37,480 nucleotides of DNA, from IMG/VR virus record IMGVR_UViG_3300031669_000105, positions 1 to 37,480 of that record; one strand, written 5' to 3'. The translations under genes and the position numbers were made by a program. Position 1 is the stretch's first letter; the number at the start of each line of letters is the position of its first letter. This DNA comes from a virus. Shown here piece after piece: positions 7,812 to 37,480 of this stretch. The notes under the pieces were generated by a model. It had not been told where the DNA came from, searched no databases, and saw only the letters and a list, made by a program, of their open reading frames with translations.

Positions 7812-8075
7812 ATGCCAGCAATAAACCTTGAAAACAGCACCATGAGCGTAATCCCGGTATCTCGCCGGGGCATAATGATGAACGCGATTATCTGCTACAT
7901 GGATAAGGAACAGATATACAACGCCCTGCTTGAGATGCGGAAAGCCCTGACCTCGGCGGTGTGGGCGGAGATGATGATGCGAGTTTGCGCTGATTTGGAT
8001 TTGAATCAAGACCTTGTGAAAGAGGTTGATAGCCTTAAGGCTCACATAACTTTCTTGCAAGAGCGGCGTTACTAG
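7812..8075 (+). CDS. Hypothetical protein (87 aa) upstream of recombination genes
   Basis: GGAGGT sits 7-12 bases before ATG 7812, so I choose this start rather than the longer frame that overlaps the methyltransferase-like gene. The product is mostly helical (EQIYNALLEMRKALTSAVW and a C-terminal coiled region). Its place before the ERF gene suggests an accessory or regulatory role in recombination. No family recognised. Confidence 0.6.
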   Translation: MPAINLENSTMSVIPVSRRGIMMNAIICYMDKEQIYNALLEMRKALTSAVWAEMMMRVCADLDLNQDLVKEVDSLKAHITFLQERRY

Positions 8076-8103
8076 CCATCAACCCATTAAGTGGAGATAC
8101 ACC

Positions 8104-8835
8104 ATGACAGAATCGAACGAGCTTGTTGTACACGAAAATTCACCGGCTGCAATGATCCAGGCAGCAATTTCCGGCAACGCTGATCTGGAAAAGCTGGAAA
8201 AGCTCATGCAGATTCAGGAGCGGTGGGAAGCGAACGAGGCGAAGAAAGCCTATGTTGTGGCAATGGCAGCTTTCAAGGCGAACCCGCCACGGATTGAGAA
8301 AACTAAACAGGTTAGCTTCGCAACCGCCAAGGGCAAGACAGAATATAAACATGCTCTTTTGGCTGATGCCGCAGAGATAATCAATAAGGCCCTGTCGGCC
8401 AATGGGTTGTCCGCAACCTGGAAAACATGCCAGCAGGAAAACAAGATCACCGTAACCTGTATGATAACGCACAAAATGGGGCACAGCGAAAGTACATCGC
8501 TGACAGCCAGCCCTGACGATTCAGGTGGAAAAAATAGCATACAGGCTATTGGCTCAACTGTTTCTTACCTAGAGCGGTACACGTTGTTTTCCCTGACCGG
8601 TCTAGCATCTCACGACATGGACGATGATGGGGCCAAGACGGAAACAATCAGCGACGAGCAGGCAAACACTCTCCATGCGCTAATCAATGACAACGATATG
8701 AACGCGGATGGTAAATATCTGCCCCGCCTGCTGGCATATCTCAAGGTTGACACGCTTGATGATCTGCTGGCCCGCGACTTTATCAAGGCGCAAACGGCAA
8801 TCAAGCAGGCCATTGCAAAGAGGGGCGCGAAATGA
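8104..8835 (+). CDS. erf: ERF-family single-strand annealing protein
   Basis: Erf promotes annealing of complementary single strands and, in P22, circularises incoming DNA. The 243-residue protein has the ERF core at about residues 45-180: AYVVAMAAFKANPP, KYKHALL-type and LADAAEIINKALSANGLS segments, then SIQAIGSTVSYLERYTLFSL and the acidic DMDDDGA end. The C-terminal 60 residues form a small helical domain. GTGGAGAT precedes ATG 8104. It is coupled by ATGA to the exonuclease gene, the classical annealase-exonuclease pair. Confidence 0.92.
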   Translation: MTESNELVVHENSPAAMIQAAISGNADLEKLEKLMQIQERWEANEAKKAYVVAMAAFKANPPRIEKTKQVSFATAKGKTEYKHALLADAAEIINKALSANGLSATWKTCQQENKITVTCMITHKMGHSESTSLTASPDDSGGKNSIQAIGSTVSYLERYTLFSLTGLASHDMDDDGAKTETISDEQANTLHALINDNDMNADGKYLPRLLAYLKVDTLDDLLARDFIKAQTAIKQAIAKRGAK

Positions 8836-9431
8836 TTACCGAGAACTTCGAGCAATGCAGTCCTGAGTGGTTTGCCGCCCGCCTTGGCAGGCCAAGCGCA
8901 AGCCAGTTTGACAAGGTCATCACAACCAAGGGTGAACGATCAAAACAGCGCACCAAGTACATGTACCAGCTTGCCGGTGAGCGCATATCAGGCGCACGGG
9001 AAGAATCGTACACCAACGCGGCCATGCAGCGTGGCACCGAAATGGAGCCTGAAGCGCGGGCACTGTACGAGCTGTTGCATGATGCCCAGGTCGATCAAGT
9101 CGGAATGTGCTACAAAGACGAAGCCCGCTTGTTCTCCTGTTCGCCTGATGGACTTGTTGGACCCACGGGCGGGCTTGAGATTAAATGCCCGTCTATGGCG
9201 GTGCATATCGAGTATCTGATGGGCGGGAAGCTGCCCACCGACTATTACCAGCAGGTCCACGGATCACTGCTTATCACTGGCCGGGAATGGTGGGATTTTG
9301 CAAGCTATTACCCAGGAATCAAGCCGTTAATTGTGCGTGTTTATCCTGATGAAAAATTCCTTGCAGCTCTCGAGTCTGAACTGATATGCTTTTGTGAAGA
9401 GCTTGCGGAGGTTGTCGAAAAAATCAAATGA
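8832..9431 (+). CDS. Lambda-type (YqaJ) exonuclease
   Basis: This 5'-3' double-strand exonuclease would make the 3' overhangs used by the ERF protein. The protein starts with the family signature SPEWFAARLGRPSASQF. The PD-(D/E)xK nuclease centre is SCSPDGL (Asp106) and LEIKCPS (Glu116, Lys118), with Glu70/Glu72 upstream and a conserved Gln in YYQQVHG. At 199 residues it is of normal length for the family. It is directly coupled to the ERF gene. Confidence 0.92.
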   Translation: MITENFEQCSPEWFAARLGRPSASQFDKVITTKGERSKQRTKYMYQLAGERISGAREESYTNAAMQRGTEMEPEARALYELLHDAQVDQVGMCYKDEARLFSCSPDGLVGPTGGLEIKCPSMAVHIEYLMGGKLPTDYYQQVHGSLLITGREWWDFASYYPGIKPLIVRVYPDEKFLAALESELICFCEELAEVVEKIK

Positions 9432-9443
9432 AAAAACTCCGTA

Positions 9444-9539
9444 CCAGCAATCGGGGCTTGAACAGAAATCGCCTATCCTTCACATCTCCCCACCGTATCT
9501 AGGTGTATACGGGGCGTGTGGCTACGCCGCAATTGCTGG
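9444..9539. other. Structured intergenic element with three nested stems
   Basis: CCAGCAAT (9444-9451) pairs perfectly with ATTGCTGG (9532-9539) and encloses two perfect hairpins: CCGTAT/ATACGG (9493-9498 with 9507-9512) and GGCGT/ACGCC (9513-9517 with 9524-9528). It fills the gap between the exonuclease gene and the tRNA-like element. The shape recalls a degenerate tRNA on the minus strand, with GTTCAAGCC near the expected T-loop, but the T-stem does not pair. It could be a folded RNA, a processing site, or a decayed tRNA gene. Confidence 0.5.
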
Positions 9540-9563
9540 AATCACCTGAAATTTAAAGTTTGG

Positions 9564-9641
9564 AGCATGGTGGCGAAATTGGTAGACGCGGTGGCCCAAA
9601 GCCATGCCAAATGCGTGCAGGTTCAAATCCTGCCCATGCTC
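9564..9641 (+). tRNA. tRNA-Leu-like element with atypical anticodon arm
   Basis: The acceptor stem AGCATGG/CCATGCT (9564-9570 with 9634-9640) pairs 7 of 7. The D-arm GCG...CGC has the leucine-type loop AAATTGGTAGA. The T-arm GCAGG/CCTGC with loop TTCAAAT is perfect, and a short class II variable arm (ATGC/GCGT) is possible. The anticodon region is abnormal: GTGGC/GCCAT closes a 5-base loop CCAAA. Opening one pair gives a 7-base loop CCCAAAG with CAA as anticodon (Leu), but C instead of the invariant T at position 33 and only four stem pairs. It may be a decayed or altered tRNA. CCA is not encoded. Confidence 0.6.
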
Positions 9642-9679
9642 ATTTTTATCAAATATTGCTTTATAACTTGGAGGGTAAA

Positions 9680-9916
9680 ATGGAAAAGTGCAAAGAGAAT
9701 GTGATGCATGGGTTTCATCTATACAGTTGTTCTAGGAAGCCATGGAAAGATGGGTTTTGCAAACAGCATCATCCCGAAACGGTAAAGGCCCGTGACGAAG
9801 AACGAACCAGAAAATATAATGAGAAACAAGCCTGCTCTCCGTGGCGGTTGCTTGAAAAAGCAAACGCTCGAATAGTGGAGCTAGAAGCAGAATTGCAAGA
9901 GTTGCGCGGCAAATGA
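9680..9916 (+). CDS. Small Cys/His hypothetical protein (78 aa)
   Basis: ATG 9680 follows TTGGAGGG; the longer frame from 9560 would cross the tRNA-like element and is not used. The protein has a Cys/His N-terminal part ending in GFCKQHHPE and a charged, coiled C-terminal half. The same GFCK-HH motif opens the HNH protein at 11523, so the two may share a DNA-binding module. It overlaps the next gene by ATGA. Function unknown. Confidence 0.65.
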   Translation: MEKCKENVMHGFHLYSCSRKPWKDGFCKQHHPETVKARDEERTRKYNEKQACSPWRLLEKANARIVELEAELQELRGK

Positions 9917-10335
9917 AAGACGACACCATCACCATAAACAGCCTACCAGCCCTGGCGCAAGCGTTGACAATGATCGACGAAGCTTGGCATGAGCAGCATT
10001 TTCTTGAAATCAAGATAGTGCGCCGGGCCAAGCAACGAACCGACCAGCAGCGCAAGGCTATAGAGGTGTATTGCCGGGAGCTGGCAACCGTGCTAAACGG
10101 TGCCGGTCTTGACCAACGGGCGGTATTGGCAAAGATGAAAGAAGGGGTGGAAATTCCCTGGTCGCAAGACACGGTAAAGGACACGCTATGGCGGCGCATC
10201 CAGGTTGCAATACTTGGCAAGAAATCCACAACAAAACTCAATGCCGATGAAGTGTCGCGGGTGTATGATACGCTGAACAGGTGGACAGGAACAACTTTTG
10301 GCATATCAGTGCCATTTCCAGAGAGGAAGGAATGA
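9913..10335 (+). CDS. NinB/Orf-like recombination protein (tentative)
   Basis: The 140-residue protein has a basic segment KQRTDQQRKAIEVYCRELA (about residues 36-55), a middle WSQDTVKDTLWR, and an end DTLNRWTGTTFGISVPFP. The NinB/Orf family binds single-stranded DNA and loads recombination proteins; the RTxDQQRK-like part and the C-terminal 'PFP' pattern fit phage proteins annotated that way, from memory. The location beside ERF and exonuclease genes agrees. The family call is uncertain; the gene itself is well supported by coupling on both sides. Confidence 0.55.
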   Translation: MKDDTITINSLPALAQALTMIDEAWHEQHFLEIKIVRRAKQRTDQQRKAIEVYCRELATVLNGAGLDQRAVLAKMKEGVEIPWSQDTVKDTLWRRIQVAILGKKSTTKLNADEVSRVYDTLNRWTGTTFGISVPFPERKE

Positions 10336-10487
10336 GAGAACATTTTGACGCACTAAACACGCTTGCATCGGAGTTTGACGGATTACCAAAATCGGCATAC
10401 ATAACGCACCTTGTGGAGAAGTTTTGAATTACCGAATTACAGGCGGCGGCATTGGTTGAATCGTGGTTATCATTAGGAGGAAGGTAA
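10332..10487 (+). pseudogene. Small gene interrupted by an in-frame TGA
   Basis: ATG 10332 overlaps the previous stop (ATGA). The frame gives 31 residues ending LVEKF, then TGA at 10425-10427, then 19 more sense codons (ITELQAAALVESWLSLGGR) and TAA at 10485. The part after the TGA reads like normal helical protein. One change (GGA to TGA) would explain it, giving a 51-residue protein. Genes here end in TGA routinely, so the code is standard. Either the gene is broken, the short form is the product, or the TGA is read through at some level. Confidence 0.5.
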
Positions 10488-10488
10488 A

Positions 10489-11037
10489 ATGGAAGAAACA
10501 AAGTTTGTAGGTTTCCCAAAAATGGCACGACTATCCCGAGAGTGTGTAATCACAGAAAAAATTGATGGAACAAACGCCCAAGTTTGCATCACAGAAGATG
10601 GGAAGTTTCTTGTCGGCAGTCGGACAAGGTGGATAACCCCAGAAAATGACAACATGGGGTTTGCGCGGTGGGCAATGGAACACAAAGACGAGCTGATGCT
10701 CCTCGGACCAGGACAACACTTTGGCGAGTGGTGGGGCCAAGGAATACAGAGGAAATACGACCTTAAAGAAAAAAGGTTTTCGCTCTTTAATGTCCACCGA
10801 TGGGCTGACCCTATTGTTCGTCCAGCGTGTTGCCATGTAGTGCCGGAATTGTTCAGGGGCGTGTTCACCACAGATATAGCAGATAGGTGTATTATGAATC
10901 TAAAACATGGTGGAAGCGTAGCGGCCCCCGGATTTCTTAAACCAGAGGGCATTGTGATTTTTCACACTGCCAAGGGTTTTCTTTTTAAAAAGACGATTGA
11001 AAAAGACGAAGTGCCCAAGTGTTTGGCTGGGCTTTAA
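10489..11037 (+). CDS. RNA ligase (Rnl2-like nucleotidyltransferase)
   Basis: The enzyme would seal 5'-phosphate and 3'-hydroxyl RNA ends using ATP. Motif I is EKIDGTN with Lys24 as the adenylated residue. Later motifs are visible: the FGEWWGQGIQRKYD region, FSLFNVHRW, PEGIVIF (motif IV) and FLFKKTIEKDE (motif V). At 182 residues it holds only the adenylyltransferase core and lacks the C-terminal domain of T4 Rnl2. AGGAGG precedes ATG 10489. A tRNA-like element lies about 850 bp upstream, so tRNA repair after host anticodon cleavage is a possible role. Confidence 0.85.
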   Translation: MEETKFVGFPKMARLSRECVITEKIDGTNAQVCITEDGKFLVGSRTRWITPENDNMGFARWAMEHKDELMLLGPGQHFGEWWGQGIQRKYDLKEKRFSLFNVHRWADPIVRPACCHVVPELFRGVFTTDIADRCIMNLKHGGSVAAPGFLKPEGIVIFHTAKGFLFKKTIEKDEVPKCLAGL

Positions 11038-11089
11038 ACTATGAGCAATGACGCAACAGCAGCACAACGCAATAATCCGATTTTTTTAT

Positions 11090-11118
11090 TTGACTTAAAC
11101 TTACCCATGGGATATGCT
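11090..11118 (+). promoter_or_regulatory. Strong sigma70-type promoter for a probably leaderless mRNA
   Basis: TTGACT (11090-11095), 17 bases, TATGCT (11113-11118). The expected start of transcription is 11125-11126, and ATG of the zinc-ribbon gene is at 11126. The gap 11038-11125 otherwise holds only a 26-codon frame at 11041 that I do not call. The layout matches the promoter at 13823. Confidence 0.7.
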
Positions 11119-11125
11119 TAAAGAC

Positions 11126-11248
11126 ATGAAAAAAATAAAAGTAGTTCGGCTGGAATGTTTACGGTGTGGGCACAAGTGGACCCCAAGGGGAGAAACCATA
11201 ACAATTTGCCCTAAGTGCAAGTCTCCCTATTGGGACCGAAAAAAATGA
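11126..11248 (+). CDS. Small zinc-ribbon protein (40 aa), copy 1
   Basis: The 40-residue product has CLRCGHKWTPR and CPKCKSPYWDRKK, a complete four-Cys zinc ribbon. It is a paralogue of the protein at 13858 (shared CxRCGH-W-PR and ICPKCKS-Y). No ribosome binding site precedes the ATG; the promoter places the ATG at about +1, so the mRNA is probably leaderless, as for lambda cI. The stop overlaps the next start by ATGA. Proteins of this type are common in prophages and bacteria but I know no proven function; DNA or RNA binding is likely. Confidence 0.75.
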   Translation: MKKIKVVRLECLRCGHKWTPRGETITICPKCKSPYWDRKK

Positions 11249-11526
11249 GCTTCCAAAAATCGGTAGCATGGCGGTCTAAAAAGTACCTGGCTTGGATTGA
11301 TTCTCTTGAGTGCATTCATTGCCAAGGTTCTGGTGGAGATCACCACCACCTAATCGGGATTGGTAGCATGGGCGGTATGGGAACAAAAGCCCCGGATTCT
11401 ATGGCTATGCCGATGTGCCGGGAATGCCACGGCATGTTCCACCTACACTCTGAGCTATGGCCGCTGCAATGGGAATATATATCCAGGACTCTTGATAGGG
11501 CTACGAGGGAAGGGGTTTTAAAATGA
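11245..11526 (+). CDS. DUF968/Ref-like HNH nuclease-type protein
   Basis: The 93-residue protein has CIHCQGSGGDHHHLIG, then GGMGTKAPDSMAMPMCRECH and a final HGMFHLH. This Cys pair, HH, and Cys-x-x-CH order is that of the DUF968 family, related to the RecA-dependent nuclease Ref of phage P1. ATG 11245 is used because it overlaps the preceding stop by ATGA; the frame is open to 11215. The protein is coupled to the HNH gene downstream. Likely role: structure-specific or nicking nuclease in recombination. Confidence 0.7.
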   Translation: MSFQKSVAWRSKKYLAWIDSLECIHCQGSGGDHHHLIGIGSMGGMGTKAPDSMAMPMCRECHGMFHLHSELWPLQWEYISRTLDRATREGVLK

Positions 11527-12302
11527 AAACATGCACTGTTCGGGGGTGTGAATTACCGATGTATGGCAAAGGATTTTGCAAAAAGCACCACCAGTGGCAT
11601 TGGAAAAGGGGGCTTCTCCCTCCAGATAAAACTATAGAAGAAAGGTTTTGGGACAATACGAAAGTTTGCGATGATGATCAGTGTTGGGAATGGGTGGCAG
11701 GCAAACACGTGCAGGGATACGGCGAGTTTAAGCGCAGCGGGTACGGACGGGCGCACAGATACAGCTATGCAACTTTCCTGGGAGAACTAAAGGCAAGCGA
11801 CTTCGTTCTTCATAAATGCAACAACCCTAAATGCGTAAACCCTTCCCACCTATATGCTGGAACACATCAAGATAACATGGGAGATATGGCATTGTCTGGT
11901 GTTCAGCGCGGGAATGGGTCACGCTTAACAGCGGTGGATGCTCTGAACATCCTCAAACTGAGAATCTCTGGGGTGATGATAAAAGAAATAACCAAGACAA
12001 CGGGTTTTACGAAAACAGAGATTTTGGGAATAACAGCGCGTGGTAATTTTTCGTGGGACAGCGATGTATTAGAACTATTGAAAGAATATAGAAGTCTTCC
12101 AAGGCAATCACTAAAGGGTTCAGAAATAAAAGCTGCAAAGATTACAGCATTAGACGCCATGCAAATATTCGTATCAAAAGAAAAAGCTTCCGTAATTGCT
12201 GGGCTATTTGGAATATCAAAAACGCTAGTTGGAAATATAAAAAGGAAAACCGCATGGAAGCATATTCATCACCTTGCCACCTTTGAGGAACTAATCAAAT
12301 GA
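11523..12302 (+). CDS. HNH homing endonuclease with DNA-binding repeats
   Basis: The 259-residue protein starts with a Cys/His module (CELPMYGKGFCKKHH). The HNH_3 domain follows at about residues 35-115: WEWVAGKHVQGYGEF, RAHRYSYATFLGEL, VLHKCNNPKCVNPSHLY. The C-terminal half has two repeats with a helix-turn-helix look (starting RLTAVDALNILKLRISG and KITALDAMQIFVSKEKAS), as in the DNA-recognition parts of homing enzymes such as I-HmuI. It is coupled at both ends by ATGA. It probably spreads itself between phage genomes. No intron border is seen. Confidence 0.85.
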   Translation: MKTCTVRGCELPMYGKGFCKKHHQWHWKRGLLPPDKTIEERFWDNTKVCDDDQCWEWVAGKHVQGYGEFKRSGYGRAHRYSYATFLGELKASDFVLHKCNNPKCVNPSHLYAGTHQDNMGDMALSGVQRGNGSRLTAVDALNILKLRISGVMIKEITKTTGFTKTEILGITARGNFSWDSDVLELLKEYRSLPRQSLKGSEIKAAKITALDAMQIFVSKEKASVIAGLFGISKTLVGNIKRKTAWKHIHHLATFEELIK

Positions 12303-12388
12303 CCCCCTGGCAGAAAATAACGATGGCCCTGCTAATAGCCCTTCTGGGCGTAAACCTGCTTTGTATCCATTTGGGGGTGTATAGATGA
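12299..12388 (+). CDS. Tiny membrane protein (29 aa)
   Basis: ATG 12299 overlaps the HNH stop and its own stop overlaps ATG 12385, both as ATGA. The product MTPWQKITMALLIALLGVNL and nine further residues is almost entirely one membrane segment. Precise coupling on both sides supports translation. Function unknown; tiny membrane proteins often modulate a host membrane complex. Confidence 0.55.
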   Translation: MTPWQKITMALLIALLGVNLLCIHLGVYR

Positions 12389-12807
12389 CCAGAGAAATCA
12401 AGTTTAGAATGTGGAGCGAGGAAGCGGTAAAGTATTTTAGCGATCCGCAGGTGTTTGAATGCTTAATGCAGCAATACTGCCACGATAATAATGCCCCATC
12501 TTTAAAACATGACCACATCGGTGATGGGATGGTTTTTGAGCAGTACACCGGACTCAAAGACAAGAATGGCAAGGAGATTTACGAGGGAGATATTGTCCGT
12601 AACTTTTGGACTTGCAAATATAAAAACTCCGGTAAACCACCAACATATACAGTAGTTTTTAAGGATGGCTGTTTTCAGTTTTGGGCCGGTAGTGAAAACG
12701 GCAATTATAAATGTGTTTCTAAAATATACTGGCCCGCAGAACATTGCAAACCTGAAAATTGGGAAATCATTGGGAACATACACGAAAACCCGGAGCTTGT
12801 CGCATGA
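12385..12807 (+). CDS. YopX-family protein
   Basis: The protein starts MTREIKFRMWSEE and contains FEQYTGLKDKNGKEIYEGDI (about residues 51-70), the diagnostic motif of the YopX family found in many Gram-positive and Gram-negative phages. The C-terminal part forms strands ending in WEIIGNIHENPEL, also typical. The function of YopX proteins is unknown. At 140 residues it has the normal length. It is in an ATGA-coupled chain. Confidence 0.88.
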   Translation: MTREIKFRMWSEEAVKYFSDPQVFECLMQQYCHDNNAPSLKHDHIGDGMVFEQYTGLKDKNGKEIYEGDIVRNFWTCKYKNSGKPPTYTVVFKDGCFQFWAGSENGNYKCVSKIYWPAEHCKPENWEIIGNIHENPELVA

Positions 12808-13145
12808 AACAACAACCAACCCGCAAGCCAGGAGAGCGCAGATGCTCAAAATGTGAAGGTCTTTACCCATTCTCGGCATATTCGTTCCAGAGGTGGGGGC
12901 AGAAAGATAGAATCTGTTGTAACTGCAAACCCTTTACGGGACGCAGCACAATGGCAAAGAAGGTAGCAGAAAAGACCAGGGCAGCGACAAGCGAGCTTTG
13001 TAAATCATGGCCTCTTGATGGTAAGGTGGATCGAGAAGAAACCTTTTGGCGGTACTGCAATGCGCGGAAGAATTTAAGGCCGGTGCCTGATGACTGTGTT
13101 AATTGCGCCATTTCTGTGATGCCATCAAATGTGGGGATATTATGA
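12804..13145 (+). CDS. Zinc-finger-like hypothetical protein (113 aa)
   Basis: ATG 12804 overlaps the YopX stop; the longer frame from 12759 is not needed. The N-terminal region has RRCSKCEGLYPFSAY and ICCNCK, resembling the KRC-x-C..L..F..C-x-C finger found next to phage HNH enzymes. The C-terminal part is basic and helical with an FWRYCNARK segment and a Cys pair (CVNC). Function unknown. Confidence 0.62.
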   Translation: MKQQPTRKPGERRCSKCEGLYPFSAYSFQRWGQKDRICCNCKPFTGRSTMAKKVAEKTRAATSELCKSWPLDGKVDREETFWRYCNARKNLRPVPDDCVNCAISVMPSNVGIL

Positions 13146-13393
13146 GCGAATTATCACGGGCAATATCAAGGCTGAGAATATGCAACATTCCGGGCAACCA
13201 TGAATTACGAAAACAGCTAAAAGATACTTTCCGGGCCGGGTGGGAAGCGCGCGAAGAGTTGCTAAACAAGCGGGTTGCCGAGATAGAGAAAGCCGCTACA
13301 CTGAAAGAGCGAGAACGGTGCGCTGTTTTGTGTAATGATATGGTTTTCTACACTGGATATGATTGCGCAGAAGCAATAAGGAGAGGGCAATGA
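13142..13393 (+). CDS. Hypothetical helical protein (83 aa)
   Basis: ATG 13142 overlaps the preceding stop. The product MSELSRAISRLRICN and onward has a GWEAREELLNKRVAEIEKAA helix and a C-terminal ERERCAVLCNDM segment ending in EAIRRG. This arrangement occurs in many small phage proteins of unknown function. It is coupled downstream by ATGA. Confidence 0.62.
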   Translation: MSELSRAISRLRICNIPGNHELRKQLKDTFRAGWEAREELLNKRVAEIEKAATLKERERCAVLCNDMVFYTGYDCAEAIRRGQ

Positions 13394-13791
13394 GCGATTT
13401 ACCAATGACGCGGGAGCAGATACAGGAAGAGATATTAAAGTGTTTTCCGCCGTGTGCGCTTTACGGTGACAGAACACAGGGAGACCTTGTTTTGGCAATC
13501 GAACACATTCTCCGCACCGGCACCATTGCGCTGAGAGAGGAAAACAAAAGGCTAAATGCTTTTCTCGCTGAAAGTTGCCAGGACATGCGAAGCCACGGGC
13601 CTTATGATGGTAGCGGCCCATGCCCGGAAATTATGCGGCTTGTTGATGAAAACAAACGCCTGCGAGGAGAAAATGCAGGAATATTAGGCGCGGCAAAACT
13701 AGAACTAGATGCCTTGCGATCCGGCGAGTTTATCTGCAAGAAATGCGGGTTGCGGAAAGGTTCTTCTTTTAAGGATCGTGGGGAGTTTTGA
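13390..13791 (+). CDS. Coiled-coil protein with C-terminal CxxC (133 aa)
   Basis: ATG 13390 overlaps the previous stop as ATGA. The protein has an N-terminal MTREQIQEEILKCF helix and a coiled-coil region with two similar ENKRL segments (about residues 46-52 and 85-91). It ends in ICKKCGLRKG, a possible zinc knuckle. It closes the ATGA-coupled chain before a new promoter at 13823. Function unknown. Confidence 0.62.
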   Translation: MSDLPMTREQIQEEILKCFPPCALYGDRTQGDLVLAIEHILRTGTIALREENKRLNAFLAESCQDMRSHGPYDGSGPCPEIMRLVDENKRLRGENAGILGAAKLELDALRSGEFICKKCGLRKGSSFKDRGEF

Positions 13792-13822
13792 GAGAACTAG
13801 AAAATGTGGCGGGTGAAAACAT

Positions 13823-13851
13823 TTGACAAATTCCTTACTAGGTGATACTTT
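13823..13851 (+). promoter_or_regulatory. Strong extended -10 promoter for a probably leaderless mRNA
   Basis: TTGACA (13823-13828), 17 bases, TACTTT (13846-13851) with an extended -10 TG at 13843-13844. The expected +1 is 13858, which is the A of an ATG. The sequence TTGACAAAT...ACTTTATGG recurs at 20070-20092, so the two promoters may be related. Confidence 0.72.
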
Positions 13852-13857
13852 ATGGCT

Positions 13858-14010
13858 ATGAACACGAACACCATGACAATCAAATGCAAGAGGTGCGGAC
13901 ATGAGTGGTATCCCAGAAAGCCAGAAGTCAGAATCTGCCCAAAGTGTAAAAGCGCATATTTCGACAAGGCGAGAAAAGCTGACGCAAAAAACGGTAAGAG
14001 AATTGTTTGA
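13858..14010 (+). CDS. Small zinc-ribbon protein (50 aa), copy 2
   Basis: The product contains CKRCGHEWYPR and ICPKCKSAYFDK, a four-Cys zinc ribbon paralogous to that at 11126. As there, the promoter puts the ATG at about +1 and no ribosome site precedes it, so the message is probably leaderless (an in-frame ATG at 13852 would lie upstream of +1). The tail after FDKARK is longer than in copy 1. The 3' part overlaps the HNH frame for 110 bp. DNA or RNA binding is likely; function unknown. Confidence 0.72.
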   Translation: MNTNTMTIKCKRCGHEWYPRKPEVRICPKCKSAYFDKARKADAKNGKRIV

Positions 14011-14530
14011 TTATCGTAATGGTGAATTGATCCGCAAAACTAGACCGGCAATGCGAACCAACATAGGGGATATTGTGGGATGTAACAGCAACGGGTATTC
14101 ACTTGTCGCCATTGACAATAAGACATACAAAGTTCATCGTGTTATATGGCTATGGCACCACGGATATTTACCAGAGCATGGAATAGATCACATAAACAGA
14201 AACAGGTCTGACAACAAAATTGAGAACTTGCGAGAGGTCAGTCATGTGTGCAATATGAGGAACACCGGAACACCAAAAAATAATATCAGCGGAGTGAAAG
14301 GGGTATATTGGAGCAACCAAAGAAAAAAATGGGTTGCACAAATTACCGTCAGTGACAGACATATTAATATTGGTGGCTCCACTGATTTTCTTGAAGCGGT
14401 ATGCCTGCGTTTAGCATCGGAACAAGCCCTGGGATGGGCAGGTTGTGACGATTGCTCACCCGCATTTCAATATGTCAAAAAGCACCTGCGGAAGGACGCT
14501 GACAACTTCTTCGGAGAAATACCCTTTTGA
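13901..14530 (+). CDS. HNH-AP2 homing endonuclease
   Basis: The catalytic part (about residues 27-120) reads LTQKTVRELFDYRNGELI, VHRVIWLWHHG, IDHINRNRSDNKIENLR and is a paralogue of the enzyme at 5369. An AP2-type DNA-binding region follows (SGVKGVYWSNQRKKWVAQI, about 128-146). The first 26 residues are only an alternate reading of the zinc-ribbon gene and match no HNH protein. The true start may be a CTG at 13979, with AAGGCGAG before it. ATG 13901 is the longest option. It overlaps RusA by TTGA. Confidence 0.82.
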   Translation: MSGIPESQKSESAQSVKAHISTRREKLTQKTVRELFDYRNGELIRKTRPAMRTNIGDIVGCNSNGYSLVAIDNKTYKVHRVIWLWHHGYLPEHGIDHINRNRSDNKIENLREVSHVCNMRNTGTPKNNISGVKGVYWSNQRKKWVAQITVSDRHINIGGSTDFLEAVCLRLASEQALGWAGCDDCSPAFQYVKKHLRKDADNFFGEIPF

Positions 14531-14877
14531 AAATCACGCTGCCATGGCCCCCAAAGGAATTAAGCCCCAACGCTCGAATCCATTGGGCGAAGAAAGCCAA
14601 GTTTATTAAAGCATACCGGCAAGAGTGTTTTGTAATTGCTCGTAACGCTGGAATAAAAGCCGATTGGGAAGGCCCAATACATCTATGGGTTACATTCTAC
14701 CCACCAGACCGGCGCAGGCGTGACGATGACAACGTGTATTCCTCGTTCAAAGCTGCCCGTGATGCGCTGGCTGATGCTATGGGGATTGATGATAATCGCT
14801 TTCGATACAGACCATTTTTGCATGATGAAGTTCGTCCAGGTGGAGAGGTTGTTGTTGCTATAACGAATGGGCCGTAA
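14527..14877 (+). CDS. rusA: RusA-type Holliday junction resolvase
   Basis: RusA cuts four-way junctions and helps resolve recombined or branched phage DNA before packaging. The 116-residue protein begins with the family pattern LPWPPKELSPNARIHW and has RRRRDDDNVYSSFKAARDAL, holding the acidic metal-binding residues Asp66-Asp68 and Lys75, then GIDDNRF. Length is normal (E. coli RusA has 120). The start is a TTG that overlaps the HNH stop as TTGA; no ATG fits. Confidence 0.92.
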   Translation: MKITLPWPPKELSPNARIHWAKKAKFIKAYRQECFVIARNAGIKADWEGPIHLWVTFYPPDRRRRDDDNVYSSFKAARDALADAMGIDDNRFRYRPFLHDEVRPGGEVVVAITNGP

Positions 14878-14879
14878 GA

Positions 14880-15278
14880 ATGATTACCCACTTGGCCCAC
14901 GTTCCAATATTTAACCGCTCAGTTTACTTTATCGGCCATTGTTCCGCTGACGATGCCGAGGATGCTGTTTATCGGCTACGAAGAAAGCGCACAGTGGTGG
15001 CGTTTACCCCTTCAGCAAACGGAGGTGTCCGTGATTGCAACGGTGATGTTTTTGTCTGGGCGAAAGACCTAGAATGTGCAAGCATTGTTGCTCATGAATT
15101 GGCCCATGCTGCCTGTTCGATTATGGAATGTTGCGGAATACCTCAGTGCCGAGAAACGGAAGAGGTAATGTGCTATTTGATTGGATGGCTGAAAATAAAC
15201 GTTCAGGATCGAGTTTTTGAGAAGTACGAAAAGAGTAAAAAACACCTTGCAATTCTGAAAAATAATGTGGTACGCTAA
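14880..15278 (+). CDS. Zinc metallopeptidase-like phage protein
   Basis: The 132-residue protein contains IVAHELAHAACSIMECCG with His72, Glu73 and His76 of an HExxH metal site. A downstream Glu cluster (RETEEVMCYLIGWL, about residues 92-105) could give the third ligand. Small phage proteins with this exact layout are common and unstudied. The start is two bases after the RusA stop. Proteolysis is an inference; the substrate is unknown. Confidence 0.75.
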   Translation: MITHLAHVPIFNRSVYFIGHCSADDAEDAVYRLRRKRTVVAFTPSANGGVRDCNGDVFVWAKDLECASIVAHELAHAACSIMECCGIPQCRETEEVMCYLIGWLKINVQDRVFEKYEKSKKHLAILKNNVVR

Positions 15279-15333
15279 AATCTACTTGAGTAGTTTTGTT
15301 GGCAACAAAAATCAAAACAAGGAGTACAAGATC

Positions 15334-15411
15334 ATGGACAAAATCGCCGCCGGAAGAAACGGCCCCACCGCAGTCATTACTTTTTATAAATTGGAAACAC
15401 TGAAGCAGTAA
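15334..15411 (+). CDS. Short ORF, 25 aa, ahead of a terminator
   Basis: ATG 15334 follows AAGGAG at good spacing. It encodes MDKIAAGRNGPTAVITFYKL and five more residues. A possible promoter (TTCTGA 15253-15258, 17 bases, TAAAAT 15276-15281) lies about 50 bases upstream and a strong terminator follows at 15444. It could be a real micro-gene or a leader peptide. No homology recognised. Confidence 0.4.
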   Translation: MDKIAAGRNGPTAVITFYKLETLKQ

Positions 15412-15443
15412 CGACGCCGCCCTGAGCACGGGCCATAAGTACC

Positions 15444-15479
15444 AAAAATCCCCGGTTAGAAATGATCGGGGATTTTTTT
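15444..15479 (+). terminator. Rho-independent terminator
   Basis: AATCCCCG (15447-15454) and CGGGGATT (15467-15474) form an 8-bp stem with a 12-base loop, followed by seven T (15473-15479). A run of A before the stem makes it useful in both directions. It closes the transcription unit that includes RusA and the metallopeptidase-like gene. Confidence 0.88.
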
Positions 15480-15498
15480 ATGCACCGCCATTTTTCGT

Positions 15499-15526
15499 TT
15501 GCAATTTCACCACCCAGTATGATAAT
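15499..15526 (+). promoter_or_regulatory. Putative promoter upstream of the long hairpin
   Basis: TTGCAA (15499-15504), 16 bases, GATAAT (15521-15526). It restarts transcription 20 bases after the terminator. Its transcript would run into the long hairpin at 15608-15685 and possibly on into DUF1376, helicase and primase. Confidence 0.55.
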
Positions 15527-15595
15527 CTGATTTTGTCGGGGTGATCTTGGCTTGACAACCAAGGGACTGGCGAAACTTTAACCGGGAAAATTGAG

Positions 15596-15697
15596 ATGAA
15601 AATGAAGAACCCATTACCAACGGAAGTCACACAAGGACCGGCAATCTCAGCCATCCCACCTTGTGCCGTTGGTAATGGGTTTTTTGCGTTCTGGTGA
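15596..15697 (+). CDS. Short ORF inside the long hairpin (33 aa)
   Basis: The frame reads MKMKNPLPTEVTQGPAI, then SAIPPCAVGNGFFAFW. It covers both arms of the inverted repeat, so the arms encode NPLPT and AVGNG. I have a faint memory of similar peptides (SA-PPC, GNGFF) near P4-type Ash/Icd regulators, which would need a search. The ribosome site is weak (TTGAG). It may be only a by-product of the hairpin. Confidence 0.35.
   Translation: MKMKNPLPTEVTQGPAISAIPPCAVGNGFFAFW
15608..15685 (+). ncRNA. Long two-part hairpin with T-tail (putative small RNA or attenuator)
   Basis: Arm 1, AACCCATTACCAACGG (15608-15623), pairs perfectly over 16 bp with 15666-15681. Inside, CACAAGG (15630-15636) pairs with CCTTGTG (15659-15665), separated from the first stem by a 6-base bulge on one side only. 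The 3' arm ends in six T (15680-15685). With the promoter at 15499 it would give an RNA of about 150 nt. It could stop transcription before the replication genes or act in trans. The next gene starts 16 bases after the T-tail. Confidence 0.55.
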
Positions 15698-15700
15698 TAC

Positions 15701-16066
15701 ATGCCGCCTAAAGGAAGCGTTGGACAGGGGCATTGGATGCCGTTATATGTTGGGGACTATTTAGCAGACACTCAACACCTGACAATATCTCAAAGTGGGG
15801 CTTATCTCCACCTGATAATGGCTTACTGGTCAAAAGGTAAGGCGCTACCGGACGATGATGGTTATTTGTCTGCCATCTGCCGTATGACCAAAGAACAATG
15901 GCGGCAAGCGAGGCCTATCGTCGAGGAGTTTTTTGACCGAGAGTCAAACCAGAATTTATGGGTACACCAGCGGATTGAAGAAGAGCTTGGAAAAGCGGTT
16001 GATAAGCGGGTAAAAAGGGCAGAGCTAGGGAAAAAGGGCGCGGCGGTAAGGTGGCAAAAGCCATAG
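15701..16066 (+). CDS. DUF1376 replication-associated protein
   Basis: The protein contains WMPLYVGDYLADTQHLTISQ, GAYLHLIMAYW and the C-terminal ELGKKGAAVRW motif, the full DUF1376 (YdaU-like) pattern. Such proteins sit beside phage replication genes and their fold resembles a winged helix. At 121 residues it is normal for the short type. No ribosome site is obvious, perhaps because the long hairpin lies just upstream. A helicase and primase follow. It may load the helicase; this is inference. Confidence 0.85.
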   Translation: MPPKGSVGQGHWMPLYVGDYLADTQHLTISQSGAYLHLIMAYWSKGKALPDDDGYLSAICRMTKEQWRQARPIVEEFFDRESNQNLWVHQRIEEELGKAVDKRVKRAELGKKGAAVRWQKP

Positions 16067-16103
16067 CAATAGCTATCAATTAGCCATAGCAAACCTATAG
16101 CAA
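16061..16103. repeat. Three ATAGCAA repeats, possible origin iterons
   Basis: ATAGCAA occurs at 16063-16069, 16086-16092 and 16097-16103, each preceded by CC or CT and with spacings of 23 and 11 bases (about two turns and one turn of DNA). The 160-bp gap 16067-16226 between DUF1376 and the helicase contains no gene. Placement beside replication genes makes an origin possible. It could also be decayed coding sequence: the DUF1376 frame resumes after two TAG codons and runs to a proline-rich end. Confidence 0.4.
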
Positions 16104-16226
16104 ACCGATGCCCACCACCACCACCTTATTTATCACTACGCTCTAAATAACCAGCAAAGACTTAACAGCGCACGCCAGGAATAAACTTTCGAATTGTTTT
16201 CTTGGCTCACTAACAAGGTTCGGAAA

Positions 16227-17744
16227 ATGGAATTAAGAGATTATCAAAACAAGGCCGTTTCAGAAGTAAGGGCCGCTATCTCTTCTGGCAACAAACGGGT
16301 TGTAATGGTTCTCAGCACAGGCGGCGGGAAGTCTCTTATCTTTGCCGAGATTATCCGGCTTGCAAGAGAGCGCGGGAACAGATGTTTGTTTCTTGTCCAT
16401 CGGCGTAACCTTGTTTTGCAAATGGCCGAGACTATCCGGGCGCATGTTGGTTGCGATGTTGGCATGATAATGGCTGGGCATGAATCGGAAACCGAAGCTG
16501 ATATCCAGGTGGGAACTATCCAGACCTTTGCAAGACGTTTGAACCTTGACGAGCTATCCTGCAATCGGTTCTTTGTTGACGCTTCTGTAATTTTGGTGGA
16601 TGAATGCCACACGGCAGTAAGCAAGCGCACAAAAGATGTTCTTGACCTGTACAAAGGCAAGGTAATCGTAGGATGCACCGCAACACCAATGAGAGCAGAC
16701 GGGCGAGGACTTGGCGAAGTGTTTGACGCTCTAGTTGATGTGGCTGGCGTGAAGGAGCTGACGGAAGGCGGGTATCTTGCTCCTGTTAGGTACTTTGCCC
16801 CGGCCACCCCTGATCTTGAGAAAATAAAGGTGGTTCGTGGCGACTACGAGCTTTCGGAGCTTGGGAAGCGGATGAACACTCCGAAGCTCGTCGGGGATAT
16901 TGTCGAAAACTGGACACGAATTGCACCGGGGCAGAAGTCCATTGTTTTCTGTATCAACGTGAAGCACGCAATAGCCGTTTGCGAGGCGTTTAACGGTTTC
17001 GGCATACCTTCAGCCGTCCTGACCGCAAAATCGTCAGAAGATGCACGGGAGAGCGTTTTTAGAGACATGGACAACGGCAATCTACTGGTGATCTGCAACG
17101 TGGCCCTTTACATCGAGGGAATGGATGTGCCAGATATAAGCTGCGTGGTTATGGCTAGACCGACAAAGAGCCTTGGGCTGTACCGTCAGGCATGTGGCCG
17201 TGGGTTGCGCCCGTCAGACGGGAAAACGCATCTTACGGTTATCGATCACGGCGGGGTAATCGAGGAACACGGGCTGCTGTGTGACGAAATAGAATGGAGC
17301 CTTGATGGTGAAGAAAAGGCGTGGAAGAAGAACGAGAAGAAAGAGAAAGAGAAAAAGCCTTGCATTTGCCGGGTATGTTCGCAGATATTCGAGGGGCGCG
17401 ATACCTGTCCGGATTGTAATACGCCGGTTCAGTCTTTTGGCAAGAAAATCGAAGTTGTTGACGCAGACCTAGAAGAAGTTGGTGGAAAGAAAAGAGCCAC
17501 AACAGCAGACAAGCGAAGATTTTACGGCATGATGTTGTGGTATGTGCGTGAGAACAAGAAAAACCCAAAGATGGTAACGGCGAGATATAAGGCGAAGTTT
17601 GGCGTGTGGCCGAGGAAGATGGAAAGCGTACAGGCTATTCAGCCTGACAATGAGTTTTTAGCGGGGATCAAGCATGAGCAGATCAGATACGCGCATCGAC
17701 GCAACAAACAAATGGCCGGGAATATGTGCCGCCCTGGGAATTGA
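16227..17744 (+). CDS. SF2 DNA helicase (DEAD/DEAH, restriction-helicase type)
   Basis: The 505-residue enzyme would unwind DNA with ATP during replication. It begins with LRDYQNKAV (Q-like motif), then Walker A STGGGKS (residues 30-36), Walker B DECH (125-128), TAT (151-153) and motif VI QACGRGLR (321-328). A four-Cys zinc ribbon (CRVC...CPDC, 381-397) follows a Lys/Glu-rich linker. A TTG start at 16194 is possible, but ATG 16227 fits homologous N-termini. The 3' end overlaps the primase frame by 71 bp. Confidence 0.9.
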   Translation: MELRDYQNKAVSEVRAAISSGNKRVVMVLSTGGGKSLIFAEIIRLARERGNRCLFLVHRRNLVLQMAETIRAHVGCDVGMIMAGHESETEADIQVGTIQTFARRLNLDELSCNRFFVDASVILVDECHTAVSKRTKDVLDLYKGKVIVGCTATPMRADGRGLGEVFDALVDVAGVKELTEGGYLAPVRYFAPATPDLEKIKVVRGDYELSELGKRMNTPKLVGDIVENWTRIAPGQKSIVFCINVKHAIAVCEAFNGFGIPSAVLTAKSSEDARESVFRDMDNGNLLVICNVALYIEGMDVPDISCVVMARPTKSLGLYRQACGRGLRPSDGKTHLTVIDHGGVIEEHGLLCDEIEWSLDGEEKAWKKNEKKEKEKKPCICRVCSQIFEGRDTCPDCNTPVQSFGKKIEVVDADLEEVGGKKRATTADKRRFYGMMLWYVRENKKNPKMVTARYKAKFGVWPRKMESVQAIQPDNEFLAGIKHEQIRYAHRRNKQMAGNMCRPGN

Positions 17745-18582
17745 GGTGGGTGATGGCAACCACACGCAATGCCCGATATGTGGGAAAAAGAAATTTAGGT
17801 TTGACGATAAGGACGGCTCGGGAAGTTGGATTTGCACTTGCTCTAACGGTGACGGGTGGGAGCTGGTCAAGATTGTTCTTGGCTGTGATTTTAAGGGCGC
17901 ACTGGATCAGGTGCGGCCAATAATCGGGGATGTTGTGCCATCTGCTATTTGCGGGGAGAAGAAAACAACCCCGGAAGTTTTGCGGAAGGTGTTTATGGAC
18001 TCAAAACCGGCAACAGTAAATAATCTTGTCGGTAAATATTTGCGATTGCGCGGCCTTAAAGAAATCCCGGTAGGGTTGCGGTATCATCCAACATGCTGGG
18101 AGAGCGAGACAAAGAAAGAACACGCCGCAATGCTAGCCGTGGTTACGCTCCCAGACGGGGAAGCGGTTACGATCCACCGGACATATCTCACGCAAGATGG
18201 GCAGAAACTGCGGATAGAAAGTCCCAAAAAGCTCATGCCGGGGTTGAAAAAGGCAACTGGTGGAGCAATAAGGCTTTACCCGCCCGTAAATGGGGCGATA
18301 GGTGTTGCAGAGGGGATAGAGACAGCTATTGCCTGCTATGAGTTGCACGGAATACCGACATGGGCAATGGTAAGCGCTGCCCTTATGGCCTCTTTTGTAC
18401 CTCCGATTGGTGTGAAAAAGGTTTATATTTACGGCGACAACGATAGCCACAAAACGTATGCAGGGCAAGCGGCTGCTTACACTTTGGCAAAGCGGTTGAT
18501 CGAAGTAAACAAGATGCCTGTTGAGGTTTTAATACCAGACGGCCATGGCGATTGGCTGGATGTGCTGAACAATGGCTGGTAA
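17674..18582 (+). CDS. DNA primase with zinc and Toprim domains
   Basis: The protein makes RNA primers for replication. The N-terminal zinc part has CPICGKKKFRF (Cys33, Cys36) and WICTC (Cys54, Cys56). The Toprim part has GVAEGIETA and then VYIYGDNDSHKTYAGQ, the conserved Glu and Asp-x-Asp. It resembles the primase half of P4-alpha or phage primase-helicase proteins without the helicase domain (302 residues). The separate SF2 helicase lies directly upstream and overlaps it. Confidence 0.88.
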   Translation: MSRSDTRIDATNKWPGICAALGIEVGDGNHTQCPICGKKKFRFDDKDGSGSWICTCSNGDGWELVKIVLGCDFKGALDQVRPIIGDVVPSAICGEKKTTPEVLRKVFMDSKPATVNNLVGKYLRLRGLKEIPVGLRYHPTCWESETKKEHAAMLAVVTLPDGEAVTIHRTYLTQDGQKLRIESPKKLMPGLKKATGGAIRLYPPVNGAIGVAEGIETAIACYELHGIPTWAMVSAALMASFVPPIGVKKVYIYGDNDSHKTYAGQAAAYTLAKRLIEVNKMPVEVLIPDGHGDWLDVLNNGW

Positions 18583-36756: not shown

Positions 36757-37465
36757 ATGGCCTCATTAACACCCCCCCCCAGGATGCAATTTTTCGACGC
36801 GAATGGAAACCCGCTTGCCGGTGGTAAATTATACACCTATGCCGCCGGGACTACTACTCCGCTGGCTACATACACAGACCAGGGAGGACTAACACCAAAT
36901 GCCAACCCTATACTGCTCAACGCAGAAGGTAAGGCGTCTGTCTGGCTCGGGTCTGCAAAATACAAGTTTGTTTTGTACAATGCCTCAGATGTTTTGCAGG
37001 ATGGTGGCGGGGATAATATCGGGGGTTTGGATCAACTTAAAGTTGAACTCGAAGCATCCTCTGGTTCATCCTTAGTCGGCTTCATTCAATCTGGCGCTGG
37101 TGCCGTAGCAAGAACAGCACAAAGCAAGATGCGCGACTTTGTAAGCCTGGCGGAGTTTGGCGCCACAGGCGATGGTTTAACAGACGATACATCCGCAATT
37201 AATTTGGCAATTTCTGCGGCTATTAGTTCTGGAAAAGCACTATATATACCCAAAGGGACATATATGACCACTGGTGGTCACACAATCACTTACCCCGGCA
37301 AAGTAAGGTTTGTCGGAGAGCAGAGGGACGGTGTTATCTTCAAACGGCTATCCGGGACGGTTACTCTCTTTGATATCGAGCAGTATGCTTTCTGCTCTTT
37401 TGAGAACATGACGATTGATGGTAATAATCTCGGCGGTAAAGCGTTCATGTGGCGAGCACATTACT
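36757..37465 (+). CDS. Tailspike / tail fibre protein, N-terminal part (continues at 1-1316)
   Basis: AAGGAG precedes ATG 36757. The first 110 residues (starting MASLTPPPRMQFFDANGNPL, with AGGKLYTYAAGTTTP) are the virion-binding head domain shared by many podovirus tailspikes. From about residue 128 a pectate-lyase-superfamily beta-helix starts (FVSLAEFGATGDGLTDDT and KALYIPKGTY). The TAG at 37465-37467 comes from the aberrant contig end and is not the true stop; the real protein goes on through 1-1316 to 632 residues. Confidence 0.88.
37340..37465. repeat. Terminal direct repeat, right copy
   Basis: Identical to 1-126. Identity stops at 37466 (position 127 has C, here A). See the left copy for interpretation as circular overlap. 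Confidence 0.9.
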
Positions 37466-37480
37466 AGTCGATATCAAAGA
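37466..37480. other. Fold-back sequence at contig end (likely assembly artefact)
   Basis: The last 13 bases (37468-37480, TCGATATCAAAGA) are the reverse complement of 37367-37379 and of the same sequence near 28-40. They do not match the true continuation after position 126. A terminal fold-back of this kind is a typical assembly-graph or read-end artefact and introduces a false stop codon. Confidence 0.75.

Follow-up and report, generated by a model that had tools for sequence, protein, structure and literature searches.

Two short genes of the IMG/VR virus record IMGVR_UViG_3300031669_000105 encode C4 zinc-ribbon proteins, and each follows a promoter-like sequence closely. Both lie within a co-directional gene array of the window, the stretch of 37,480 nucleotides (nt) analysed here (positions 1 to 37,480 of the record). 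Their features are listed in Table 1. The motifs C-x-RCGH-x-W-x-PR and ICPKCKS, which an initial annotation had reported as common to the two proteins, are seen in both translations. The same annotation described promoters with exact 17-base spacing, and these strings are present at 11090-11118 (TTGACT-17-TATGCT) and 13823-13851 (TTGACA-17-TACTTT). Its term near-consensus is generous for site 2, where the weak -10 hexamer matches at only 3 of 6 positions. The -10 hexamer stands 7 nt before ATG 11126 in gene 1 and 6 nt before ATG 13858 in gene 2. A further in-frame ATG of gene 1, at 11114, falls within its -10 hexamer.

Table 1. Features of the two zinc-ribbon loci in the window (SD, Shine-Dalgarno; PWM, position weight matrix; aa, amino acids)
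Feature	Position	Strand	Remarks
-35 hexamer TTGACT, promoter 1	11090..11095	+	PWM score 27.1 bits
Spacer element TTACCCATGGGA, promoter 1	11101..11112	+	family consensus TTACCnATAGGT
-10 hexamer TATGCT, promoter 1	11113..11118	+	+1 predicted at 11125-11126
Zinc-ribbon gene 1	11126..11248	+	40 aa; leaderless start predicted at ATG 11126
DUF968/HNH nuclease gene	11245..11526	+	ATGA overlap with stop of zinc-ribbon gene 1
HNH_3 endonuclease gene	11523..12302	+	ATGA overlap with DUF968 gene
-35 hexamer TTGACA, promoter 2	13823..13828	+	PWM score 20.1 bits; left edge of DNA homology to contig L159
Spacer element TTACTAGGT, promoter 2	13835..13843	+	shortened form
SD-like AGGTGAT	13840..13846	+	7-nt perfect anti-SD match; 5 nt before in-frame ATG 13852
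-10 hexamer TACTTT, promoter 2	13846..13851	+	+1 predicted at 13858
Zinc-ribbon gene 2	13858..14010	+	50 aa; leaderless start predicted at ATG 13858; alternative ATG 13852
HNH_3 endonuclease frame	13901..14530	+	overlaps zinc-ribbon gene 2; start uncertain: ATG 13901 (upstream AGAGGTG), CTG 13979 or TTG 14003

The window alone is no evidence for promoters, since a generic sigma70 scan is at chance level: positions 8000-18000 contain 12 matches, compared with 13.0 +/- 3.1 in shuffled sequence, and site 1 is listed among them and site 2 is not. A generic terminator scan is likewise at chance level. Homologues were gathered from viral contigs and metagenome-assembled genomes (MAGs), in which contigs labelled archaeal may be misbinned, and de-duplicated to 83 loci. 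The 90 nt upstream of each gene were searched for a TTGACA-like hexamer, 17 nt, and a TAnnnT-like hexamer, with the gap to the start codon not used as a criterion. Such a promoter (TTGACA-17-TAnnnT) is found ahead of the zinc-ribbon gene in 46 of the 83 unique loci. In 26 of these 46 the gap between the -10 hexamer and the start codon is 5-9 nt, mostly 6-7 nt; this is the distance from the -10 hexamer at which sigma70 transcription starts fall. When the window is scanned with a PWM built from 42 homologous promoters, the window excluded, the two best scores fall on these two sites (Table 1) and the next reaches 9.1 bits, and the best scores in 30 shuffled windows have a mean of 7.7 and a maximum of 16.0 bits. 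Once homologues are compared, both window promoters are beyond chance as sequence patterns.

The promoter is also largely specific to this family. With a separate scoring (score of at least 9 and a gap of 5-8 nt), 25 of 82 family genes carry it, compared with 4 of 602 control genes from the same loci, where it is about 45 times rarer. Two strict promoter patterns run over 2.9 million viral contigs matched six contigs, all of which carry the zinc-ribbon family, and 10 of the 14 matches to two looser patterns lie ahead of a family gene. A search allowing three mismatches in 50 whole records returned 11 sites, at most one per record. Among 50,697 isolate phage records neither a DNA match nor a protein match to this family was obtained. 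The promoter-ATG layout that the initial annotation proposed to look for at homologues is found in dozens of uncultured viruses. Two contigs, one of a Pacearchaeota and one of another archaeon (L117 and L118), carry a divergent zinc ribbon with the bacterial promoter absent, and a TATA-box-like TTTATAAATA lies about 25-30 bases upstream of its ATG.

Leaderless messages, with +1 at or one base from the ATG, had been proposed for both genes, and the clustering of the gap across the family supports this for the predicted start sites. In short-gap members the message would leave no room for an SD sequence, and relatives whose -10 hexamer is 18-30 nt from the start mostly have an SD of 5-8 nt within the leader. 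That neither gene has a ribosome binding site, as was also claimed, is correct for gene 1, whose longest SD match is 3 nt; SD matches of 5 nt or longer are absent, even upstream, from gene 1 and from 14 further members with a short gap. For gene 2 the claim does not stand at the DNA level, given AGGTGAT. This stretch is upstream of the predicted +1 of gene 2 and would therefore be usable only on read-through transcripts. Relatives of gene 2 (L028, L030, L034, L037, L041, and L106) have an extra in-frame start directly after AGGTGAT-like DNA, and they could combine SD-led translation on read-through transcripts with leaderless translation from their own promoter. Gene 1 is grouped, with modest support, with the leadered relatives L088, L068, and L109, so that switching between start modes seems possible.

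Strong purifying selection acts on the zinc ribbon (pN/pS, the ratio of nonsynonymous to synonymous polymorphism, is 0.07-0.39, with synonymous sites often saturated), implying that it is not a mere leader peptide. Protein 2 matches the MJ0042-type zinc finger (NCBIfam TIGR02098), a generic domain, at 25.5 bits with a cut-off of 20.9, and protein 1 scores 12.7. All Pfam matches of both proteins, including those to HypA and Pfam zinc-ribbon families, are below the curated cut-offs, as is HypA in NCBIfam. Structure comparison of the zinc-ribbon model gave no match reaching Z 5. Weak matches are to zinc ribbons of the RNA polymerase Rpb12 type and of the ribosome, and the search of solved structures points weakly to the PF0610 and HypA zinc ribbons. 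As modelled, the fold is assignable as a generic zinc ribbon only.

What lies downstream suggests a mobile unit. Homing-type nucleases follow both genes in the window (HNH_3 at 11523 and 13901, DUF968/HNH at 11245), and HNH, endonuclease VII, TnpB, and LAGLIDADG types are found in relatives. Among 69 next genes scanned, Pfam HNH_3 was matched by 14, TnpB-type domains by 4, and LAGLIDADG by 1, and many matched HNH and endonuclease VII PHROGs; no HNH_3 or TnpB match was found among 62 upstream neighbours. A nuclease is next in 31 of 44 promoter-bearing loci compared with 7 of 29 without promoter (Fisher p ~1e-4, uncorrected for relatedness). In most nuclease loci the zinc-ribbon stop and the nuclease start overlap to within about 8 nt, commonly in the form ATGA or TAATG. 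Just ahead of the nuclease start, the DKER codons of the zinc ribbon frequently read as an SD-like AAGGAG.

The unit is common to otherwise non-homologous genomes. Between the window and the 12.9-kb contig L159, DNA similarity is limited to 13823-14311 (71%) and one 185-bp block elsewhere, and the homology begins exactly at the -35 hexamer of promoter 2. When locus surroundings were compared all-against-all, up to 2.5 kb per side, 189 similar pairs were found, in which similarity typically extends from 35-60 nt before the ATG to near the end of the zinc ribbon; most pairs have no further homology within 2.5 kb. For example, L028 (followed by HNH) and L041 (followed by an endonuclease VII-like cluster) are 80% identical over 175 nt.

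Another conserved part of the promoter is a TTACCnATAGGT-like element between the -35 and -10 hexamers, which is outside the core. The element resembles a stretch 13 nt downstream beyond what random pairing of sequences would give (z-score 5.3, or 3.0 after near copies are removed, at one of 12 offsets) and contains a weak dyad (z-score 2.8, near copies removed). In the promoterless zinc-ribbon loci L013, L022, L094, L103, and L104, a similar promoter is found 0.3-1.4 kb upstream on the same strand. These signals, together with the distant similar promoters, are consistent with an operator. A plain palindromic operator was rejected, as there is no strong dyad. Being the only protein common to all cassettes, the zinc ribbon is the most straightforward candidate for binding the element, and we infer that it may act as an autorepressor.

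At the sequence level, the comparison shows a conserved promoter, a clustered gap, a constrained protein, a block with defined borders, nucleases that are exchanged downstream, and overlapping starts and stops. These findings support the following explanation. Each site is probably the head of a mobile homing-type nuclease cassette, in which about 160 bp of promoter plus predicted leaderless zinc ribbon precede a nuclease whose translation would be coupled to it. The host sigma70 polymerase would initiate at the zinc-ribbon ATG. 70S ribosomes would then load on the 5'-terminal AUG and translate the zinc ribbon; 70S binding at such an AUG of leaderless mRNAs has been reviewed (PMC9031893). At the zinc-ribbon 3' end, which often encodes an SD and overlaps the nuclease start, terminating ribosomes would reinitiate on the nuclease. 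Accumulating zinc ribbon would bind the spacer element and repress the promoter, limiting nuclease expression. A host-hopping cassette would be well served by a leaderless start, because such a start is independent of local leader sequences. The initial annotation had taken the kept design as a sign of function in a duplicated gene; function is supported, with a promoter that moves together with the gene and stands at the head of nuclease cassettes, and duplication as the route is not.

Other explanations were weighed against this one. The promoters could be real and the working messages still leadered, arising by read-through from phage promoters upstream or from a start further upstream, with gene 2 translated from ATG 13852 by way of AGGTGAT and the short gap reflecting compact packing. 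The ideal spacing of AGGTGAT in gene 2 and its sub-clade, where the extra in-frame start is kept, favours such messages, as do the co-directional array around both genes and the existence of leadered relatives. They appear unlikely nonetheless, given that gene 1 and 14 other short-gap members lack an SD match even upstream, that the gap clusters at 6-7 nt instead of being scattered, and that the promoter is kept even though the carriers' upstream neighbours are unrelated. It is also possible, and we hold this at rather low confidence, that the nuclease, a phage repressor, or a host factor occupies the spacer element in place of the zinc ribbon, and that the zinc ribbon has another role, e.g., partnering RNA polymerase or the nuclease. 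The zinc-ribbon fold is generic, with its weak likeness to Rpb12-type and ribosomal zinc ribbons, and I-TevI is a nuclease able to repress itself (PMC2988022). Against a binder of this kind, the element recurs in cassettes whose nucleases are unrelated and whose viruses otherwise lack homology, and the zinc ribbon is their sole common protein. Chance matches or generic early promoters, with a merely coincidental leaderless layout, are very improbable: the chance-level generic scan and the poor -10 hexamer of site 2 would fit them, and they are contradicted by the window-excluded PWM, the control genes, and the collection-wide pattern scans.

Several observations weigh against the nuclease-cassette explanation itself. 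About half of the family loci have no recognisable promoter of their own or have an SD leader, and in about one third of promoter-bearing loci the next gene is not a nuclease. SD-like stretches occur upstream of the predicted +1 in 11 of the 26 short-gap members, gene 2 included, and are possibly used on read-through transcripts. Conservation of the hexamers is partly by construction, because the choice of promoters required good hexamers; this does not apply to the gap statistic. Family matches, clusters, and reading together decided which genes counted as nucleases, and the loci are not fully independent. The repeat and dyad signals of the element are weak, its binding by the zinc ribbon is inferred, and the AlphaFold2 protein model is of low confidence (predicted local distance difference test, pLDDT, 67.5).

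A broader suggestion can be made tentatively, namely that uncultured viruses share a mobile expression head in which a promoter containing its own operator is combined with an autorepressing zinc ribbon of leaderless type and an embedded SD. If so, HNH, endonuclease VII, TnpB, LAGLIDADG, and other mobile nucleases would be swapped in behind it, and their expression would be host-independent and self-limiting. A promoter-plus-leader block ahead of unrelated nucleases, TnpB included, would offer one way for selfish nucleases to be expressed at any site of insertion with no harm to the carrier phage, and it would account for the retention of the leaderless start. The block may also serve as a short tag when metagenomic viruses are searched for mobile nucleases.

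The lambda cI gene encodes a helix-turn-helix (HTH) repressor and does not head a nuclease cassette, and experiments have established that its message is leaderless. It is a phage gene with AUG at the mRNA 5' end (PMC9031893), as is predicted for the genes described here. Another close system is CvkR of type V-K CRISPR-associated transposons, a small mobile-element regulator beside a nuclease-type effector gene, with a conserved binding motif (PMC9938897). CvkR is translated from a leaderless mRNA, and the neighbouring cas12k is leaderless too (PMC9938897). However, CvkR is of the MerR type and has a separate start site, which experiments place 82 nt away from the cas12k start (PMC9938897), whereas here a C4 zinc ribbon is co-directional and overlapping with diverse nucleases and its regulatory role is a prediction. 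In phage T4, the homing nuclease I-TevI is controlled through a promoter-overlapping operator with the involvement of a zinc finger (PMC2988022). There the nuclease itself is the repressor (PMC2988022); here it would be a separate leader protein common to unrelated nucleases. The free-standing T4 seg and mob homing endonucleases are likewise mobile nuclease genes in inter-gene gaps, and the passages of PMC2988022 covered mention no promoter-plus-leader-gene block shared across nuclease families. In the part of the open-access literature covered, no description of such a leaderless zinc-ribbon/nuclease arrangement was found.

The two zinc-ribbon genes were annotated as paralogous and duplicated. 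They are homologous, and in the tree each groups with genes of other viruses: protein 2 with L026 of another virus (support 98/85) and protein 1 with L088 (98/72, which falls short of the tool's star threshold, in a tree of few columns and many unresolved forks). Intragenomic duplication is not supported by this tree, and two separate acquisitions appear likelier than one duplication. One virus (L160, G022:25500-30500) has two copies of the zinc ribbon separated by about 1 kb, and both copies have a short-gap promoter.

The HNH frame after gene 2 is open through most of the zinc-ribbon gene in the +1 frame (13901-14010). In L026 and L027 the nuclease is likewise without a standard start near the zinc-ribbon stop. 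Zinc ribbon 2 and HNH might conceivably be joined by frameshifting; their frames differ by +1, and inspection by eye revealed no conserved slippery site. On the upstream side, a small open reading frame (ORF) at 11041-11121 ends shortly before zinc-ribbon gene 1; it is a candidate coupling ORF and gave no match in curated-family scans.

Elsewhere in the window, a tRNA-Leu(CAA) gene (9563-9642) is followed after about 850 bases by an RNA ligase gene (10489-11037), an arrangement reminiscent of tRNA-repair counter-defence. A 131-base direct repeat at 1-131 and 37340-37470 is 99% identical, suggesting a complete genome that is circularly closed or terminally redundant.

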